Shown here piece after piece: positions 40,005-49,094 of a stretch of 64,000 nucleotides of DNA. This DNA is from Candidatus Poribacteria bacterium. Its GTDB lineage: Bacteria > Poribacteria > WGA-4E > WGA-3G. The DNA lies in assembly GCA_028821605.1 (NCBI GenBank), contig JAPPFM010000041.1:1-64000 (forward strand). The letters are read 5' to 3'. Within the stretch, counting starts at the first letter, position 1, and each line of letters starts with the position of its first letter. A program made the translations under genes and the position numbers. The notes beneath the pieces were generated by a model. The model was not told the origin of the DNA and ran no database searches. It was given only the letters and a program-made list of their open reading frames with translations.

Positions 40005-40340
40005 TCGTAAAAACGAAGGGTTAACTGAAAGAAGGGTTACGCGCGTTGTCCAAAGTGCGTAAGCCTAACCGGGGTCCCCACCCGTTACTGGGAAGGGGCG
40101 GGCAGACTGGATATACAGAAAAGCACTTTATTTTCTAAACCGGTCTGACCGAACCGCAAGGAACATTACTGCAACAAACCCTAAAGTTGTTTGTTGCGTG
40201 ATTGTGAGAACGAAAGGTCAAGTGAAAAAGATGGGCTACGCGCATTTTCCAAAGTGCGTAAGCCTAACCAACGGGCAGGCTGGGTATACGGAAAGATACT
40301 TTATTTCCCAAACTGGTCTGACCGAACCTCAAGGAACATT
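39971..40340 (+). repeat. Tandem duplication of the mfd 3' end and the following leader
   Basis: Copy 1 (39971-40167) and copy 2 (40168-40340) begin with ACTGCAACAAACCCTAAAGT and end with CAAGGAACATT. Copy 1 contains the last 11 codons and stop of mfd plus 160 bases of spacer. Copy 2 repeats them out of use, including the same LQQTLK-type codons and a TGA. Copy 2 lacks about 24 bases (GGGGTCCCC... block near 40073-40098). The second copy also supplies the ribosome-binding AAGGAA of the next gene. No gene is seen in 40005-40346. Confidence 0.85.
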
Positions 40341-40346
40341 AAAGAT

Positions 40347-41318
40347 ATGAAAAAAGCGATTACTGTTTTTGTAATTGTCGCTATGACTTGTCTGTTAACG
40401 TGGCGGTTTGTTCAGTCTGATAGTCATGAACAACCTGAAGTTACTATGGACGAGAGCCAAGTGATTTTGGTGGAATACAAATGGAATGGTGAATCCCATC
40501 AAATCTCGTTGGCAGACTTAAACGCTGCAATCTCGGAATTGCCGGTTTACCGTCAGCAGAACTATAAGAGTCGAGCAGACAAAGCCGAGTATCTTGAGGA
40601 GTTGATAGAGGAGAAACTCAAAATCCTTCGTGCTGCTGACGATGGGTTTGATACACTCCCTGAACACCTCAAAAAACTGGAAGATTACACCCATCAGCTC
40701 ATGGTCGAGAAATTAACCGAGGCGGAAGTAGATAACAAAATCGCCTATACCGACGAGGAGCTCATGGCGCACTATCAAGCGAATTTAGGTGAGTACGTTG
40801 AGGATGCCAAAGTTCGCGCGATCTGCATTACCCTTGATGACGAGGATTTCGCGAATGAGACGTTGGATACTATCAAAGCGGGTAAGGACATCATTGAGAT
40901 GGCGAAGGAGCTCTCGGAAGCTGGAAAACTTGCTAACGGACCCGGTAGTTCCGACCCGGATAATCCAGGCAATACCTTCTTCTTCACAAAATCTGCCTCA
41001 CCACGCTGGGAGGAATTCATTGAGGCTGTTTTTGAGCAAGAAGTTGGCGAAATGACGGATGTCCTTTTTGAGACTGATGTCAACGACGAAACCTTCTATC
41101 TCATCTTCCGTAAGGAAGAGCACCATCCAGACCGTCAGCAGGAATTCGATGAGGTCAAGAGCGATATCCAAAGGACTGTTGAACGTGAAAAGAAACGCTC
41201 ACGCATCAATGAGTGGGTTACCCAGATTACTGAGAAAGGCAAGTTAAAAACCTATCCTGAAAATATTCCGGAACCGCCGAAACCAGAAGAAGCGGAAACC
41301 GACGAGTCAGACCAGTAG
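40347..41318 (+). CDS. PpiC/PrsA-like periplasmic chaperone with degenerate parvulin domain, paralogue 1
   Basis: A 323-residue exported protein starting at ATG 40347 with AAGGAA upstream in repeat copy 2; an earlier TTG in the frame is in the duplicated spacer. The N terminus MKKAITVFVIVAMTCLLTW is a signal or anchor segment. A helical N-terminal part (ISELPVYRQQNYKSRADKAE) leads to a parvulin-like fold: DAKVRAICITLDDEDF, then FIEAVFEQEVGEMTDVLFE and FYLIFRKEE. Typical catalytic His residues of parvulins are absent (the RHIL-type strand reads RAICIT), so it is probably a holdase only. The C terminus is acidic and Pro-rich. It resembles the next gene over its full length. Confidence 0.8.
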   Translation: MKKAITVFVIVAMTCLLTWRFVQSDSHEQPEVTMDESQVILVEYKWNGESHQISLADLNAAISELPVYRQQNYKSRADKAEYLEELIEEKLKILRAADDGFDTLPEHLKKLEDYTHQLMVEKLTEAEVDNKIAYTDEELMAHYQANLGEYVEDAKVRAICITLDDEDFANETLDTIKAGKDIIEMAKELSEAGKLANGPGSSDPDNPGNTFFFTKSASPRWEEFIEAVFEQEVGEMTDVLFETDVNDETFYLIFRKEEHHPDRQQEFDEVKSDIQRTVEREKKRSRINEWVTQITEKGKLKTYPENIPEPPKPEEAETDESDQ

Positions 41319-41455: not shown

Positions 41456-42490
41456 ATGCTCACAGCAGTTGCCCGCTTCATGGGCAGAATCAATAGTCAG
41501 TTCCGGCTTCCGGTTGTCCCTTTACTTTTACTTGGGATTCTTGCCACACACCCTATTTTCTATAGTTGTGGCGACAAGGCAATTGGTGCTGACGGAACAG
41601 TCATTGCTGAATTTGATTGGAATGGTAAACAACGCATCACCCTTGAAGAGATGATGCAAGAGATTAGCGAACTCCCTGAGTACAAGCAGCGTCAATATCA
41701 AGACAAAGAGGGGTTGGAAACCTACATGCTTCTCATGGCAGAGAGTCGCTTAATTCTCAATCTCGCCCGGGACGAAAAGCTCAACGAAGACCCGGAAATT
41801 CTCAAGAAGGTTCAGGATTACCTTCACGAGTTGATGGTTAAGAGGATTACGACGCAGGAGGTCGACGATAAGCTCATTTTAAGTGAAGACGACTATATTC
41901 AATACTACGAAGCACACAAAGAGGACTACGTGCGTCCGGCGCAAGTGAGGCTTTCATGTATTACCCTTATGAATCAAGAGCGGGCTGATGAGTCGTTCGC
42001 ACAAATCAAAGAAGGCAAAGACATCCTTGAAGTCGCCCAAGAACTTTCCGATCGCGGTGAACTCGTCGGTCCTGGGGCGAATCCAGCCTCCCCGGGTGAC
42101 ACGGACTACATTGGTCGGGATTCCTTCCCAACGGGAACTGAGCCTTTCTTAGATGCAGCGTTCGCTGGAGAGATCGGTAAACTCCATGATGGGGTTATTG
42201 AGGTCGATGTCCAGGGGCAGAAGTACTACATGATATTCCGAAAAGATGAGGCTCGTGACGAATACCAAAAGCCATTTGAGGACGAAGATGTTCGTAAGAG
42301 TGTCGAGCGGAAAGCGGAACGCGAAAAACGACAACAACTCATGGATGATTGGGTTCGTCAGCTTCGTGAACGTGCCGAGGTCAAAACCTACATAGATCGC
42401 ATCCCAGAGGCACAATCCGAAGAAGCTGAAGAGGCATCAGAGGAAGAGCACTCCGAAGAATCTTCTGAGGAGACAGAACCTGAAGAGTAG
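41456..42490 (+). CDS. PpiC/PrsA-like chaperone with degenerate parvulin domain, paralogue 2 (possible lipoprotein)
   Basis: A 344-residue protein with AAGGAG before ATG 41456. The hydrophobic LPVVPLLLLGILATHPIFYSC ends with a Cys that could be a weak lipobox (FYSC). It shares with the previous gene the FDWNGKQRITLEE opening, a helical ISELPEYKQRQY segment, a parvulin-like core (QVRLSCITLMN, FLDAAFAGEIGKLHDGVIE, KYYMIFRKDEA) and a basic helix at the end (ERKAEREKRQQLMDDWVRQL). The catalytic pattern is again lost. The tail EEAEEASEEEHSEESSEETE is strongly acidic. It is probably a periplasmic chaperone for outer-membrane or secreted proteins. Confidence 0.8.
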   Translation: MLTAVARFMGRINSQFRLPVVPLLLLGILATHPIFYSCGDKAIGADGTVIAEFDWNGKQRITLEEMMQEISELPEYKQRQYQDKEGLETYMLLMAESRLILNLARDEKLNEDPEILKKVQDYLHELMVKRITTQEVDDKLILSEDDYIQYYEAHKEDYVRPAQVRLSCITLMNQERADESFAQIKEGKDILEVAQELSDRGELVGPGANPASPGDTDYIGRDSFPTGTEPFLDAAFAGEIGKLHDGVIEVDVQGQKYYMIFRKDEARDEYQKPFEDEDVRKSVERKAEREKRQQLMDDWVRQLRERAEVKTYIDRIPEAQSEEAEEASEEEHSEESSEETEPEE

Positions 42491-42598: not shown

Positions 42599-43909
42599 AT
42601 GGCTTACAGAATTGTCGCTTATCTTATGTTCTGTTTATTTTTTATCTGCAGTGGTGTAAGCGTCAGTGTCGCTCGCACTTTTGACAGGATCATCGCTTAC
42701 GTCAATGACGATGTTGTAACCAAACGAGAACTTGATGTCTTGGTGAAGCAACGCGCGATGGAACTCCAGCAAGTCTATCGCTACAGCGAGCGTGAAGCAC
42801 TCAATGAGTCCGAACGACAACGACCTGAACTTCTCGATCGGCTTATCAGACAAATGCTTCTTTTGGAAGCCGCGCTAACCTTGAAGATTACCGTCAGTGA
42901 CGCAGATATAGAGCAGTACGTTCAAGACTTTAAAAAGAGATACCAAATTGAAACCGATGAGGAGTTTGAAAAGCAGTTAAACCGAGAAGGCATGACACTC
43001 TTTGCTTTTCGAGAGCAATCGGAGCGGAACCTTAAAGCGGAGAGACTTGTGATGGGAAGAATTGTTCCGCGATTACAAGTCCGCGACAGCGAGATCCAAA
43101 AGTTTTTTGAAGAGAATCGAGACCAACTGCCAACTAAATCAGATAAAGTCCACTTGCGGCATATTTTTGTCGCTTTTAAACCGAACCAAGCGGACCGAGA
43201 TGCTGCATTTGAAACCGTTCGGAAAGCACTTGATGAAATCGCAGCAGATAAAGATAACGCGAAGTTTGAAGAATTCGCACGGCGATATGCCCCGAAAAAG
43301 AATCCGAGTTCGCAAGCCGGGATGCTCATAGAAGCTACGACTGAAGAACTCAATCGATTTCCAGAGATATTTCAGAATGTCCTGAAAGACTTGACAGAGG
43401 GTGCGCTGAGCGAACCGATTGAGGGAAACGAAGGACTCTACGTTTTCGCTGTGGAACAGAAAACGGACGAGATGATTGCGTTTCGGTATCTCATTGTTCC
43501 ACTTGTGCCCAGTGCGGAGGCTATGCATGAGGCGCGCGAGCACATCGTTGAAGTTTACAAAAAGTTGGAAAATGGTGATGATTTTACAGCACTTGCGGCA
43601 GCACATTCCGACGATGTTGAAACGCGAGAGAACGGCGGTGACCTTGGGGTTCGGTCCTTGGTGGAACTCAATCCTAAAACGCGTGCGGTAATTGAAGCAT
43701 TGGAAGCCGGGGCTTACACTCAACCCCACGAAACTGAATCCGGTCTTCACATTTTTAGAGTTGACGAGCGAAATAGCCCTGATCTAAGTGAAGCGGAGAA
43801 GATACAGATCACCTCAATACTCCGTCAGCAACGGTTTCAGGAAGAATGGGATGCGTATACCAACAAACTCCTCGAAAATGCCTACGTCAAAATTGAACTG
43901 AAAGAGTAA
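42599..43909 (+). CDS. SurA-like periplasmic chaperone / peptidyl-prolyl isomerase with two parvulin domains
   Basis: A 436-residue exported protein. Signal peptide: FCLFFICSGVSVSVA. Residues about 27-180 form the SurA N domain, recognisable from FDRIIAYVNDDVVTKREL and DRLIRQMLLLEAALTLK. The first parvulin domain has KVHLRHIFVAFKP and FARRYAPKKNPSSQAGML; the second has IAFRYLIVPLVP, FTALAAAHSDD, NGGDLGVRSL and ESGLHIFRVDE. In E. coli SurA handles outer-membrane porins and LptD. The gene ends seven bases before the LptD-like gene, a close coupling that matches surA/lptD linkage in proteobacteria. The isomerase activity of each domain is not predictable. Confidence 0.88.
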   Translation: MAYRIVAYLMFCLFFICSGVSVSVARTFDRIIAYVNDDVVTKRELDVLVKQRAMELQQVYRYSEREALNESERQRPELLDRLIRQMLLLEAALTLKITVSDADIEQYVQDFKKRYQIETDEEFEKQLNREGMTLFAFREQSERNLKAERLVMGRIVPRLQVRDSEIQKFFEENRDQLPTKSDKVHLRHIFVAFKPNQADRDAAFETVRKALDEIAADKDNAKFEEFARRYAPKKNPSSQAGMLIEATTEELNRFPEIFQNVLKDLTEGALSEPIEGNEGLYVFAVEQKTDEMIAFRYLIVPLVPSAEAMHEAREHIVEVYKKLENGDDFTALAAAHSDDVETRENGGDLGVRSLVELNPKTRAVIEALEAGAYTQPHETESGLHIFRVDERNSPDLSEAEKIQITSILRQQRFQEEWDAYTNKLLENAYVKIELKE

Positions 43910-43916
43910 GAAATCT

Positions 43917-46900
43917 GTGAGAAAGAACGCGTCTGACGTGCCTACCCGTTATCAGTATCAATACGCGAGGGCGGTGCAGCATTACGCTGCCCGCATCGCA
44001 ACGTCAGGAATTGAGCATGTAATGCTCACGATGTTCGTTATCCTATGTCTGCTTTGTCCACTACAGGTCGTTATCGCGCAAGGTGCGCAACCCCCTGAAC
44101 CTCCCACGACTGAAACCGCACCCCCCGAATCCACAGATCAAACACAGCAGGAAGAATCCGCCGCAGAACGGTTGAATCCTGAAACAGATGTCCCTGGAGA
44201 GGGCATGGTCATCGGCGATGGCGACGATATGGCTATGGTCGATAATTTCGTTCAAATTCACGGGAACGCGCTTATCAAATTTGAGGATGTCATTCTCCGG
44301 GCTGACCATATCTGGGCTGATTTTGATGAAAACCTGATGCGTGCCTCAGGGAACGTCCACCTTAAGATAGGAGACGAGGAAACTTACTCCGATGAACTCA
44401 TCTTCAACCTTGAAAATAAAAAAGGAATTGCCCGCAACGGCTTTACATTTAGCGATCCGTGGTATTTTGGCGGTAGTGAAATCTTTAAAATCCAGGAGGA
44501 TCGTTCCTATATCCGCGGTGCGACGCTAACGACCTGTTCGTTGAAACATCCGCACTACTATTTCAGTGTTTCTGAAGTCATTGTCCGAATGAACCAGGAG
44601 ATGATCGCCAAAAATATTGTTTTGCGTATTGGTGGGTTTCCGCTGTTTTATTTTCCCGCGATTCGGCGGGATCTGCGTAAAGGTAAGATCGCAAAGATTA
44701 TTGTCAAGGTTGGAACGGATAGTTACCAAGGTCCCAACCTGAGTATCATCTTACCTGTGGCACGCAAACGGCGTTATGATGGGGCGTTGCTCTATGATAG
44801 GAGTGCGAGACGTGGGCAAGGTTACGGGTTTGAAGGAAAATACCGATTCAATGATACACAGTTTCAAGAAATCTATATTCCGATTCCGCCTGACGTAACA
44901 CCGAACCAACGCACAAAGTTAAAGGAGAAGGCGGATGAATTACATGACCGGCTTGACGGTGAATATGATCGCTATTGGTTGCGGCAAATTTTCCTTGAGT
45001 ATAAGATCACTGACGAGGATGTGAAGCGCGCGAAAGATCGCGCCGAAGAACTCCGCACGCAGCTTCAGGAAGAGGATGCTGACTTCGCACAAATTGCCCA
45101 GAGCAATTCAGACCATTACGATACCCGCTACGATGGTGGTGATATGGGATTCCTCGTTCCCGGTGAGGTTGATGAGGAAGGTAACCCGAAGCTTGATCCC
45201 GTTTTGGAGGAAGCTGTCTTTGCACTGGAAGATGGTGAAATTAGTGCTGTTATCCAAACCGAATCCGCTTTTCATATCTTCAAAGCGGAACAGGTCCTTG
45301 ATGTCTATGGTGAGCGCGAAATTAAACTCAGCCGTATTGATGTCGCTATTTCTGCGAGTGATGATACAGAATACGTCATACGCGAGTTGGCGAATGATAT
45401 GCTCAAACGTGCCCAAGAAGGGGAGCCTTTTGAGCAATTGATACAAATTCCCGATGAATTTACTGATGTTGCCCAACCGGTCTTGTCGGAACTCAACGAA
45501 GGTGAAGGGATGCTGCTAAATGAGATGGAATCCTCTTGGCAGCCCTCAGTCAAACGCTTAGAAAATCCAGGTGATGTCACTGAACGTAGACCTATTTCTA
45601 TGCCCGAAGGACTTTACATTTTCCAACTCATCAGAAAAGAGCAAACCCCAACTTTTGAGGAAGTCGCTGAACAGTTTGAAGCAGAATGGGATGCTTTTTA
45701 CGAGGAGTTGATGAATCCTCCGCCAGAGGAAGCCGTAGAAGATGGAATGCCCACGGATGACAGTGGAGATGTGGAGCAGAGCGAGCCAGAGGATGGAGAG
45801 GAGAGCGAAACAGCGTCTGAAGAAACCGCAGAAGGTGATAAAGCAGAAAACACAACCGAAAACGTTCAACCCCAAGAACCGGATACTGTTACCACTGCAC
45901 CAGAGCTGCGACAAGCACCTGATCCCACCGATGCTGACGATGCTGCTGACAACAGCGAGGATATGGAACAGAGCGAACCGGAGAATGTGGAGGAAGACGA
46001 AACTGATTCTGATCAGGTTGAAGGCGAAGTTACCGATGGAGACGAAGAAGGTGAAACCTCCGAAGAAGACGCGGAGGACGAAGACGAACTTAAGGTCTAT
46101 CGGAAACACGGATTTCGAGGACGGTGGGAGGATCCAAGTGCTGTAGCCTCAGACGCACAAAGCATGTACGCTGGTGAATTTAGCAGACGCCCCGTTCAAA
46201 CCAAAAAGTCCTTCCGTCTCCTCAAGGTTGATAAAAAACGAACGTATCGAGGGGACATCTACTTCTACGGAGCAGACCGCTACTCCTACGAGCGACAGAA
46301 TGCCACCCGAATCGGTAGGCGGTGGAATATGCGGTGGGCACATACCCAATCCTTTTATACGCCGTGGGATGACCGCCAAGCTGGTAGGCGTCCGATCAAT
46401 TTCACAGGTAGGACGGAGTTGCAAGCCCGGAATTTTAAGGAGGAATTAAAACTTCCCAGCGAATCCACACTCAACTCTTTTGGAATACTCACTTACGGGA
46501 CAGGTTTTTCCACCGTTGCTGACGAGGATGTTGATGAGAACGGCAACCTGAGGTTCTCGCGAGAAACTATCGGTGATTTGACAAGCAGGCTTGAAGTGCG
46601 ACACATTCACGATTTCACGGGTGAAGGCACGACATCGCTACAAAAGCTTCCGCAGCTCACTGTAAATTTATCGCGGATGCGTGTGGATGCTTTTCCGCTC
46701 TTTAAGACCCTTAACGATGGCATGGAGACCCTTGCCGAAAGATTCGGAACCGAAAAGCCATTTCTTTCACTGCTCGCTTTTCCAACCCTTGACAGCACAA
46801 GTGTTGACCTTGATTTTGAGTTCGGCAATTTCTTTAGGGAAGTTTATCGCGCTAAAGCGGGTGAAGAGAGAGATGTATTCCTACAGACAATAGACCTTGG

Positions 46901-47924
46901 ATTTGATGTCCGCAAGCAGTCAACGCTCCTTATTACGCCTTTGCGCGAGCTTCAACTCGGTCTCAATCTCAATACGAACATGGTTTGGCACGACCGGGAT
47001 CAGGAAAATAATAAGAATATTATAAGGGGCGTTTACAGTTTTAATGGAACTGCTACGAACACCCTTTTCCGTATCTATAATATCAGTTATATCCCCGGAA
47101 TGCGAAGGTTGCGACACGAAATACAATCCTCACTCCGGTTTAATTATCAGCCCGCTGTCGATCAAGATGAGAGTCTCTATCCTTTCGGTCCCAGTACCTA
47201 TTTCTATGAACGGAAGAGACTCACGTATAACTTCAATACGAACTTTGAAATCAAGACCCGACGGAGTCAGTCGGCACACCGTATCTTCTATTTTGATACA
47301 CGGCTTACCGCCGATTTCACTGAATTCGATCCTTTGTATGAGCGTCAATTTGAGCCTATTGAGAGTGATTTTACATTCGTTCCGCTTCCAAGCCGAAACC
47401 TAAACATGACCTTTCGGGTCACGCATGATCCCAATCCGCATCCGGTTGATGGCAAACAGTTCAAAGTGGTTGGAATCCGTACCAATATCCGTTATACTCG
47501 GCAGTCGTGGAACGTTAGTATCGGTAACTCGTTTAGTAAACGCCATACATCGAGACGCGCGTCGCGGTCACTCACTGCCACCGGTCGTTATCGTTATAGC
47601 CAAAATCTTGAATTCGATCTGAGTCTCATCTATTATCCTATTGATCGGCAGTTTTACTCACAACGTCTCACAGTTACACGTAACCTCCACGATTGGAGTC
47701 TCCGAATTTCTTGGAGTCGCGTCGGCATTGACCGCGGCGACCCGCGTTACAACAACGTCCGTCAGGACTTTACGTTCCAAGTGAGTCTGATTCAAGAACC
47801 CGCAGTTTCTATGGGTGTCGGTTACGACGCGACGACTGAAACTTGGGGACTCCGAACCATACCGGCTGGCATGCCTTATAACGCATTTGGCTCCGGAAAT
47901 TCACTCGGCAGGTCTTACTTCTAA
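43917..47924 (+). CDS. lptD: LptD/OstA-like LPS-assembly barrel with inserted SurA-like parvulin module and acidic linker
   Basis: A 1335-residue protein, far longer than usual LptD (about 780). The GTG 43917 start gives 35 extra residues before the signal segment; ATG 44022 (MLTMFVILCLLCPLQVV) is an alternative. Residues about 95-250 form an OstA/LptA-like beta-jellyroll (VQIHGNALIKFEDVILRADH to FPLFYFPAIRR). The first barrel strands follow (GALLYDRSARRGQGYGFEGK). Then comes an insert of about 400 residues: a parvulin domain (352-462; FAQIAQSNSD, GGDMGFL, SAFHIFKAEQV), a second more degenerate one (about 466-590; EGLYIFQLIRKEQ), and an acidic linker (600-725). Barrel strands then continue to the end (KHGFRGRW, SYFYERKRL-type strands). 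Only one Cys is visible in the mature part, so the E. coli disulfide pairing is absent. Confidence 0.85.
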   Translation: MRKNASDVPTRYQYQYARAVQHYAARIATSGIEHVMLTMFVILCLLCPLQVVIAQGAQPPEPPTTETAPPESTDQTQQEESAAERLNPETDVPGEGMVIGDGDDMAMVDNFVQIHGNALIKFEDVILRADHIWADFDENLMRASGNVHLKIGDEETYSDELIFNLENKKGIARNGFTFSDPWYFGGSEIFKIQEDRSYIRGATLTTCSLKHPHYYFSVSEVIVRMNQEMIAKNIVLRIGGFPLFYFPAIRRDLRKGKIAKIIVKVGTDSYQGPNLSIILPVARKRRYDGALLYDRSARRGQGYGFEGKYRFNDTQFQEIYIPIPPDVTPNQRTKLKEKADELHDRLDGEYDRYWLRQIFLEYKITDEDVKRAKDRAEELRTQLQEEDADFAQIAQSNSDHYDTRYDGGDMGFLVPGEVDEEGNPKLDPVLEEAVFALEDGEISAVIQTESAFHIFKAEQVLDVYGEREIKLSRIDVAISASDDTEYVIRELANDMLKRAQEGEPFEQLIQIPDEFTDVAQPVLSELNEGEGMLLNEMESSWQPSVKRLENPGDVTERRPISMPEGLYIFQLIRKEQTPTFEEVAEQFEAEWDAFYEELMNPPPEEAVEDGMPTDDSGDVEQSEPEDGEESETASEETAEGDKAENTTENVQPQEPDTVTTAPELRQAPDPTDADDAADNSEDMEQSEPENVEEDETDSDQVEGEVTDGDEEGETSEEDAEDEDELKVYRKHGFRGRWEDPSAVASDAQSMYAGEFSRRPVQTKKSFRLLKVDKKRTYRGDIYFYGADRYSYERQNATRIGRRWNMRWAHTQSFYTPWDDRQAGRRPINFTGRTELQARNFKEELKLPSESTLNSFGILTYGTGFSTVADEDVDENGNLRFSRETIGDLTSRLEVRHIHDFTGEGTTSLQKLPQLTVNLSRMRVDAFPLFKTLNDGMETLAERFGTEKPFLSLLAFPTLDSTSVDLDFEFGNFFREVYRAKAGEERDVFLQTIDLGFDVRKQSTLLITPLRELQLGLNLNTNMVWHDRDQENNKNIIRGVYSFNGTATNTLFRIYNISYIPGMRRLRHEIQSSLRFNYQPAVDQDESLYPFGPSTYFYERKRLTYNFNTNFEIKTRRSQSAHRIFYFDTRLTADFTEFDPLYERQFEPIESDFTFVPLPSRNLNMTFRVTHDPNPHPVDGKQFKVVGIRTNIRYTRQSWNVSIGNSFSKRHTSRRASRSLTATGRYRYSQNLEFDLSLIYYPIDRQFYSQRLTVTRNLHDWSLRISWSRVGIDRGDPRYNNVRQDFTFQVSLIQEPAVSMGVGYDATTETWGLRTIPAGMPYNAFGSGNSLGRSYF

Positions 47925-47933
47925 TTCTACCCC

Positions 47934-48395
47934 TTGCTCTGGTTTTTCGACAAGTTGAAACGGGATAGTGACAGACGTGATAAAGTGTTGTTTATTGATG
48001 CACGCCATCTCTATCGGCAGGTAAGTCGTGCCCATCGGGAATTCACACCTTTGCAGCTTGAATTCCTTGCGAATATTGTGAGGCTCTATCGTGGAGAAAC
48101 TCCCGAAAATCAACACGACAGCGCGGATTTCCTCGCCACGAAATTCCCCGATGCAGAATATATTGATGTTCTTGGACTTTGTAAGGTGGCTACCGTTGCT
48201 GAGATTGAAGCGCAAGGATGGAGCCTCAACCCCGGACGGTATGTTGGTGTTGCTGAACAGACGGCTGATGATTTTGATTTCGCCGAACGATTTGGGGAAC
48301 TCAACGAGGAATTAGCGGTACTAAATGCCGAGGCGCGTCAATTGGAGGAACGGATTGCTGAAAACGTTGCGAAGATTTTGGAAGATAGGGTATAA
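47934..48395 (+). pseudogene. HsdM C-terminal fragment (type I restriction-modification methyltransferase)
   Basis: A 153-codon frame opening at TTG 47934, nine bases after the lptD stop. The sequence matches the C-terminal part of HsdM N6-adenine methyltransferases: [67 protein letters not shown], and the final coiled coil [19 protein letters not shown]. The SAM-binding and NPPF motifs, which lie earlier, are missing, so it cannot methylate DNA. No hsdS or hsdR remains. It is a remnant of a deleted type I system beside a toxin-antitoxin pair that is still complete. Confidence 0.85.
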
Positions 48396-48415: not shown

Positions 48416-48772
48416 TTGGCTCAAGCGATAAAAGATGTGAAATGGATTGGGAACTCCCATGAGATGTTACGGAGTTTCCCCAAAGCTGCGAGACAGATAG
48501 TAGGTGATGCCCTACGTATTGCTCAAATTGGAGGTAAACATCGGAATGCTAAACCTCTGATAGGGGTAGGTTCAGGTGTATTTGAGATCGTCGCTCGTTA
48601 CGATAGGAACACCTACCGGGCGGTTTATACTGTTAAGATTGGCGAGAACATCTATGTACTTCATGTATTTCAGAAGAAATCCACTCGTGGTATCAGAACA
48701 CCCAAAAGGGAAATTGACCTGATTAAACAACGCCTGAGAATAGCGCGAGAGATGGAGGAAAAAAATGAGTGA
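48416..48772 (+). CDS. higB: HigB-like toxin (phage Gp49-like / DUF891)
   Basis: A 118-residue basic protein starting at TTG 48416 with AAGGGGAG upstream. Segments typical of the DUF891/Gp49-like RelE-fold toxins are SFPKAARQIVGDALRIAQIG, the GSGVFEIVARYDRNTYRAVY core and IYVLHVFQKKSTRGIRTP, followed by a C-terminal basic helix. It should be an mRNA interferase. The antitoxin starts eight bases before its stop. It is a different subfamily from the toxin at 9735-10073, which has the ELR-type core and lacks this KKSTRG segment. Confidence 0.85.
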   Translation: MAQAIKDVKWIGNSHEMLRSFPKAARQIVGDALRIAQIGGKHRNAKPLIGVGSGVFEIVARYDRNTYRAVYTVKIGENIYVLHVFQKKSTRGIRTPKREIDLIKQRLRIAREMEEKNE

Positions 48773-49094
48773 AGAGATCAAAATTGTGGAGAGTTCTGGG
48801 AATGTGTTTTTGGACATCGGTTTCTCTGAGGAAGAAGCGGAATATCATCTGTTAAGGGTAGACCTTGCCTTCGCAATCCACCATCTTCTTGAGGAGCAAA
48901 AGCTAACACCAGCAAAAACAGAAGCACGCTTTGGACTCGATCCGTCTGATGTGTCCCGCCTGAAGGAAATGGATTTTACAGATTTCACTGTGGAACGGTT
49001 GCTAATGATTCTGAAGCGGCTGAACCGCAAGGTTGAAATTCATATTAAGCCTTCGGATGGAAAGGACAAGCACCAGCGAGTTTTTGTTACATAG
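48765..49094 (+). CDS. higA: HigA-like antitoxin (XRE-family helix-turn-helix)
   Basis: A 109-residue protein with an eight-base overlap with the toxin, so translation is coupled. Residues about 30-90 hold the XRE-type fold: LAFAIHHLLEEQKLTPAKTE, then RFGLDPSDVSRLKEMDFTDF as the recognition region, and VERLLMILKRLNRKVEIHI. N-terminal residues are acidic. It should bind and neutralise the toxin and repress the promoter at 48367-48396. Confidence 0.85.
   Translation: MSEEIKIVESSGNVFLDIGFSEEEAEYHLLRVDLAFAIHHLLEEQKLTPAKTEARFGLDPSDVSRLKEMDFTDFTVERLLMILKRLNRKVEIHIKPSDGKDKHQRVFVT

Follow-up and report, generated by a model that had tools for sequence, protein, structure and literature searches.

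SurA-like parvulin domains built into the outer-membrane barrel of poribacterial LptD

LptD is a key client of outer-membrane assembly and a target of antibiotics; how it depends on SurA and the BAM complex has been much studied in E. coli and its relatives. The locus described here raises the question of whether an LptD can carry a chaperone of the SurA kind within its own polypeptide, and what such a module might do there. In the window (the whole stretch of 64,000 nucleotides that was analysed) the original prediction had recognised an LptD homologue whose barrel contains a SurA-like parvulin module, encoded in one continuous frame of 1335 residues. The frame is exactly as described, starting with GTG and running uninterrupted through 1335 codons at 43917..47924 of the plus strand (as are the parts of the gene and the upstream parvulin genes given below), and sequence, structure prediction and phylum-wide recurrence agree on the proposed architecture. 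It is the sole LptD-like locus of its genome (6.0 Mb, 60 contigs), in which no second, unfused lptD was found. The probable core of a signal peptide (residues ~36-55, MLTMFVILCLLCPLQVVIAQ; 44022..44081) was recognised by inspection of the sequence; the GTG lies 35 codons 5' of this core, and translation may begin there or at another codon.

A Pfam scan of the window protein yielded a single Rotamase stretch (PF00639, residues 360-458, E=2.5e-21) and no match to an LptD model. Because Pfam sees only the parvulin in this protein, LptD identity was tested in four other ways. Of the LptD family models PF19838 and PF04453, the former (LptD_2) matched 13 of 32 orthologues (best 4.7e-9), and LptD_N/OstA_2 gave weak matches in orthologues. 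LptDs from 20 genomes of other phyla matched the profile of the fusion on either side of the insert, skipping the insert itself, with an N-terminal match (window residues ~91-329) and a C-terminal one (~1008-1285, up to 2.3e-12). Two AlphaFold2 models were made, one of L071, the shortest intact orthologue (1105 aa; mean pLDDT 77.9, pTM 0.52), the other of window residues 136-1335 (pLDDT 73.1, pTM 0.55). With the L071 model Foldseek returned LptD first (E 4e-21), then PPIase/SurA at the insert, then LptA, and its jellyroll matched LptA 2r19 (TMt 0.62-0.67) and whole LptDs; LptD was also the top match of the window model (E 1.9e-13), with SurA/PPIase structures again matching the insert. The L071 model has ~26-28 barrel strands. 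The Foldseek TM-scores are moderate (0.3-0.5), so that the LptD fold class is secure and the details of the barrel are not.

These comparisons delimit an LptA/OstA-type beta-jellyroll (beta-taco) at residues ~97-250 (44205..44666), supported by the weak LptD_N/OstA_2 matches, Foldseek and the unfused-LptD profile matches, and barrel strands beta1-beta4 at ~256-315 (44682..44861), located by alignment to unfused and E. coli LptD and by DSSP of the models, in good agreement with the prediction of both elements at residues ~95-320. The remaining barrel (beta5-beta26; ~777-1335; 46245..47921) is likewise LptD, as predicted, both by profile (unfused LptDs match hmm ~884-1160) and by Foldseek. The protein resembles ordinary LptD (E. 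coli LptDE structures 4q35 and 9kn3) in having a jellyroll and a ~26-strand barrel, in the conserved TTC..PH motif and in a gene adjoining surA, although in E. coli surA follows lptD, whereas here it precedes the fusion. LpxC, LptF, LptG, an LptA/LptD_N-like ORF and Omp85 are all present in the same genome. The fusion protein is the LptD of the poribacterial LPS translocon.

Alignment with unfused LptDs and our own strand count put the junction at residue ~281 of E. coli K-12 LptD, in the beta4-beta5 turn, and the strand count in the two models places the insert in the same turn. Since this turn follows an even-numbered strand, topology would put the insert on the periplasmic side of the barrel. 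In ordinary LptD the turn is tight (2-4 residues), whereas in the fusion it comprises ~460 residues, somewhat more than the about 400 first estimated, and holds three parvulin units. The original prediction had distinguished one clear and one degenerate parvulin. These were borne out as P1 (residues 353-458; 44973..45290; PF00639; 5.7e-32 with an iterated parvulin profile) and the degenerate P2 (residues 469-571; 45321..45629; 1.3e-17), which aligns with P2 of SurA, but a third, discontinuous unit outside them had been missed.

With the iterated profile all analysed fusions except the contig-truncated L079 had, besides P1 and P2, a third match, to the C-terminal half; in the window protein the third match ends at residue 772. 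Three Rotamase stretches each were found in L071, L076 and L077. The segment before P1 corresponds to profile positions 1-34 and that after P2 to positions 33-98, therefore the two can be taken as halves of one discontinuous parvulin. Its N-half (beta1-alpha1) occupies residues ~316-350 (44862..44966), its alpha2 is a helix at ~577-598 (45645..45710), recognised by homology to the TPTFEELARQF segment of L071 and as a helix in the model, and its C-half spans ~726-776 (46092..46244), the last strand running into barrel beta5. As a control, P1-P2 were masked in the fusions, which were then scanned with half-profiles built without the outer halves. In 29 of the 31 fusions the N-half profile scored best directly before P1, and in all 31 the C-half profile scored best after P2, for L078 in its second insertion; shuffled sequences averaged lower scores (-2.8 and -2.9 bits, with maxima of 3.7 and 1.9). 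It must be noted that the N-half scores are weak singly and the rows are related, thus the case for the outer parvulin rests on the consistent place and on the models.

In both models one unbroken strand (residues 300-322 of the window protein) leads from barrel beta4 into outer beta1 and another (765-789) from outer beta4 into barrel beta5; in the window model a helix occupies residues 329-347. In parvulins beta1 and beta4 are adjacent, which would explain how a hairpin of the barrel can carry such a domain. The computations show that a discontinuous parvulin takes the place of the turn, with edge strands that extend beta4 and beta5, and that the alpha1-alpha2 loop of this outer domain houses a SurA-like P1-P2 pair. 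How the arm is oriented towards the barrel should be regarded as tentative, the pTM of the models being only 0.52-0.55. The acidic low-complexity linker was correctly predicted to be present, but its place had to be corrected to the inside of the outer parvulin (~604-724; 45726..46088). It consists of 42% D/E, has pLDDT < 35 and no secondary structure in the model, and is predicted to be disordered. The linker has 50-158 aa in one order and ~12 aa elsewhere, that is, it arose or expanded in one order only, inside an otherwise conserved domain.

It is instructive to compare the insert with SurA itself (PF09312/PF13624 plus two PPIC parvulins; 1m5y, 8pz1). Among PDB sequences the insert profile comes closest to E. 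coli SurA, across P1+P2 (E 2.3e-15, ~259 positions), and the insert has the same contiguous P1-P2 pair. A P1-P2 tree has a branch (100/96; 98% of bootstraps) that separates the SurAs of other phyla from the poribacterial inserts and the poribacterial SurAs, which remain together; the tree neither demonstrates nor rejects one common origin for the inserts. The label SurA-like, chosen in the original prediction, is fitting in these respects, but the insert lacks the SurA N-domain and the first active-site histidine, and SurA is a free protein whereas the insert is part of its presumed client. SurA_N did not match the fusion; it did match the adjacent, complete surA gene (SurA_N plus two parvulins; 42599..43909), which is separated from the fusion ORF downstream by 7 nt. 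Judged from sequence, the module was apparently copied from SurA, and its origin is likely to have been a duplicated stretch of the neighbouring surA, captured in the ancestor of the phylum. Single parvulin domains of the insert are also similar to those of the multi-parvulin foldases PrsA and PpiD (2jzv, 8zht), which, however, are membrane-anchored or soluble foldases and do not have their parvulins inserted in a barrel. Upstream of surA, and in tandem with it, the window has two genes of PpiC-type periplasmic parvulins, identified by domain search (A, 40191..41318; B, 41456..42490), and mfd. L074, L075 and L079 have one ORF of 664-733 aa with two parvulins of the PpiC type, perhaps a merged form of the upstream pair.

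The explanation we favour, tentatively, is that LptD is helped in cis by its SurA-derived module, which would serve as a folding clamp or chaperone and not as an enzyme. It is favoured by the LptD identity of the flanks, the periplasmic placement and SurA ancestry of the insert, the retention of the module throughout the phylum with dN/dS values (0-0.15) that are barrel-like and well below those of the linker, the second parvulin insertion that the deepest class has in a further turn predicted to be periplasmic (beta10-beta11), and the presence of LpxC, LptF/G and Omp85. It is also favoured by what has been described for E. coli, where SurA is the main chaperone of LptD (PMC3944529) and LptD is an unusually slow client of BAM with an assembly time of ~20 min (PMC13067283).

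By this mechanism the outer parvulin would fold early in the periplasm and, being fused to beta4 and beta5, would pre-form that hairpin and clamp it in register. The nested P1-P2 pair, like the parvulins of SurA, would bind unfolded strands of the same chain and/or contact BAM, the tethered module holding its client strands at fixed stoichiometry. Each LptD would travel with its own chaperone, free SurA would serve other clients and still help, and after assembly the module would stay as a periplasmic collar beside the jellyroll. In E. coli the binding of substrates and of BAM centres on the SurA N-domain, and its absence from the insert counts against a chaperone acting in cis. Since a complete surA is kept next door, the insert is not a replacement of SurA and the module is not needed for general SurA activity. 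We regard self-chaperoning as a plausible hypothesis. The bolder proposal of a phylum-wide covalent chaperone-client fusion, in which the essential barrel has its own SurA-derived chaperone, built into a hairpin without a seam, and assembles without the disulfide checkpoint of E. coli, is one we would advance with still more reserve.

It is possible, and has to be weighed seriously, that the arm instead serves as a scaffold of the mature translocon, either as a collar which positions the jellyroll or the LptA bridge or by steadying the lateral gate, and that it replaces the interdomain disulfides of E. coli and perhaps also partner lipoproteins. Cys207 is the single cysteine of the mature window protein, and most fusions have none or one, compared with four in ordinary LptD. 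The double disulfide by which E. coli LptD is linked to its beta24-beta25 turn (Cys31/173-724/725; PMC12644819) can therefore not form, and the arm could hold the jellyroll instead. The disulfides of LptD are not universal, N. gonorrhoeae being different (PMC8983717). The scaffold function would also agree with the first catalytic histidine missing from P1, with the rigid continuity between outer parvulin and barrel strands in the models, and with the retention of free SurA. A further point in its favour, that LptE (PF04390) had no match in the genome, is weak because the same model missed four of seven control genomes bearing LptF/G. Against a scaffold, the contact between arm and jellyroll is putative, and the SurA ancestry of the insert points to chaperoning.

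That the insert is an active prolyl isomerase or foldase, with LptD and further outer-membrane proteins around the translocon as its substrates, seems unlikely to us. P1 scores far over the Rotamase cut-off, has kept the GGD(L/M)G motif, and retains the second parvulin histidine in 23 of 31 representatives. The first histidine, however, is absent from P1 in all 31, replaced mostly by Q or R, which leaves the canonical His/Cys-Asp/His catalytic set incomplete in every representative and makes catalysis by the insert unlikely; moreover, P2 and the outer unit are degenerate, and the P1 motifs are lost in family f5.

Still less probable is that the insert is neutral, a functionless addition tolerated in a periplasmic turn. 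The fast-evolving, lineage-specific acidic linker and the varying P1 motifs of family f5 would fit neutrality. The parvulin segments, however, were never lost across the phylum, and their dN/dS values relative to near relatives are low: 0-0.03 for the outer N-half, 0.03-0.05 for P1, 0.07-0.15 for P2 and 0.02-0.08 for the outer C-half, compared with 0.01-0.08 for the barrel and 0.28-0.37 for the linker. These ratios indicate that the parvulin module is maintained under strong purifying selection.

Recurrence in relatives had been suggested as a check of the original prediction, and a chimeric contig as a way in which it could fail. The whole-fusion profile and a junction profile were each run on 386 genomes, partly the same ones, which represent a sample, not a census. 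Among the 84 poribacterial genomes searched, lptD was detectable in 81 by our count, and 80 of these have the in-frame junction, in a few cases on contig-edge pieces; the remaining one is uninformative, its contigs breaking at the junction. An artefact of assembly or gene calling is hardly conceivable, because about 80 genomes share the junction, several of them single-contig (including G004, G009, G021, G028, G045 and G055), which excludes misassembly. Neither profile found the junction among ~300 genomes outside Poribacteria, a sponge- and ocean-associated phylum, and the fusion design seems to be common to the whole of it. Two large multi-parvulin frames from other phyla (L168, L169) were rejected as SurA_N/PpiD-like and not LptD, and L123, an LptD of 1087 aa, was rejected as it is without parvulin. 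In the accessible parts of the open-licence literature we found no description of an LptD with parvulin domains or of such a fusion, and nothing on poribacterial LptD.

The SurA-derived parvulins fused into LptD represent a natural chaperone-client pair of fixed stoichiometry, and they show that a periplasmic turn of the barrel can carry a large folded domain. The fusion suggests an alternative to the assembly route that uses disulfides and LptE. The fusion protein remains an LptD and the insert a parvulin. The nested domain-in-domain-in-barrel architecture escapes family scans, Pfam detecting no more than a Rotamase stretch in the window protein and missing LptD.

G071 and G072, the deepest class sampled, have an extra parvulin in a second turn of the LptD barrel, beta10-beta11 by our count and predicted to be periplasmic (L078, residues ~743-880 of the minus-strand ORF L078:1-3786; L090, frame 1, residues ~248-380). 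Its C-half precedes its N-half, as if it were circularly permuted. Beyond the fusion gene the window contains, at 47934-48395, an ORF of 153 aa which matches only the C-terminal end of the N6 DNA methylase profile (PF02384, 3.1e-9) and is probably a methylase remnant, and, at 48416-49094, a probable toxin-antitoxin pair in which a Gp49-like gene (PF05973, HigB-type) overlaps with the HTH_37 gene that follows it.
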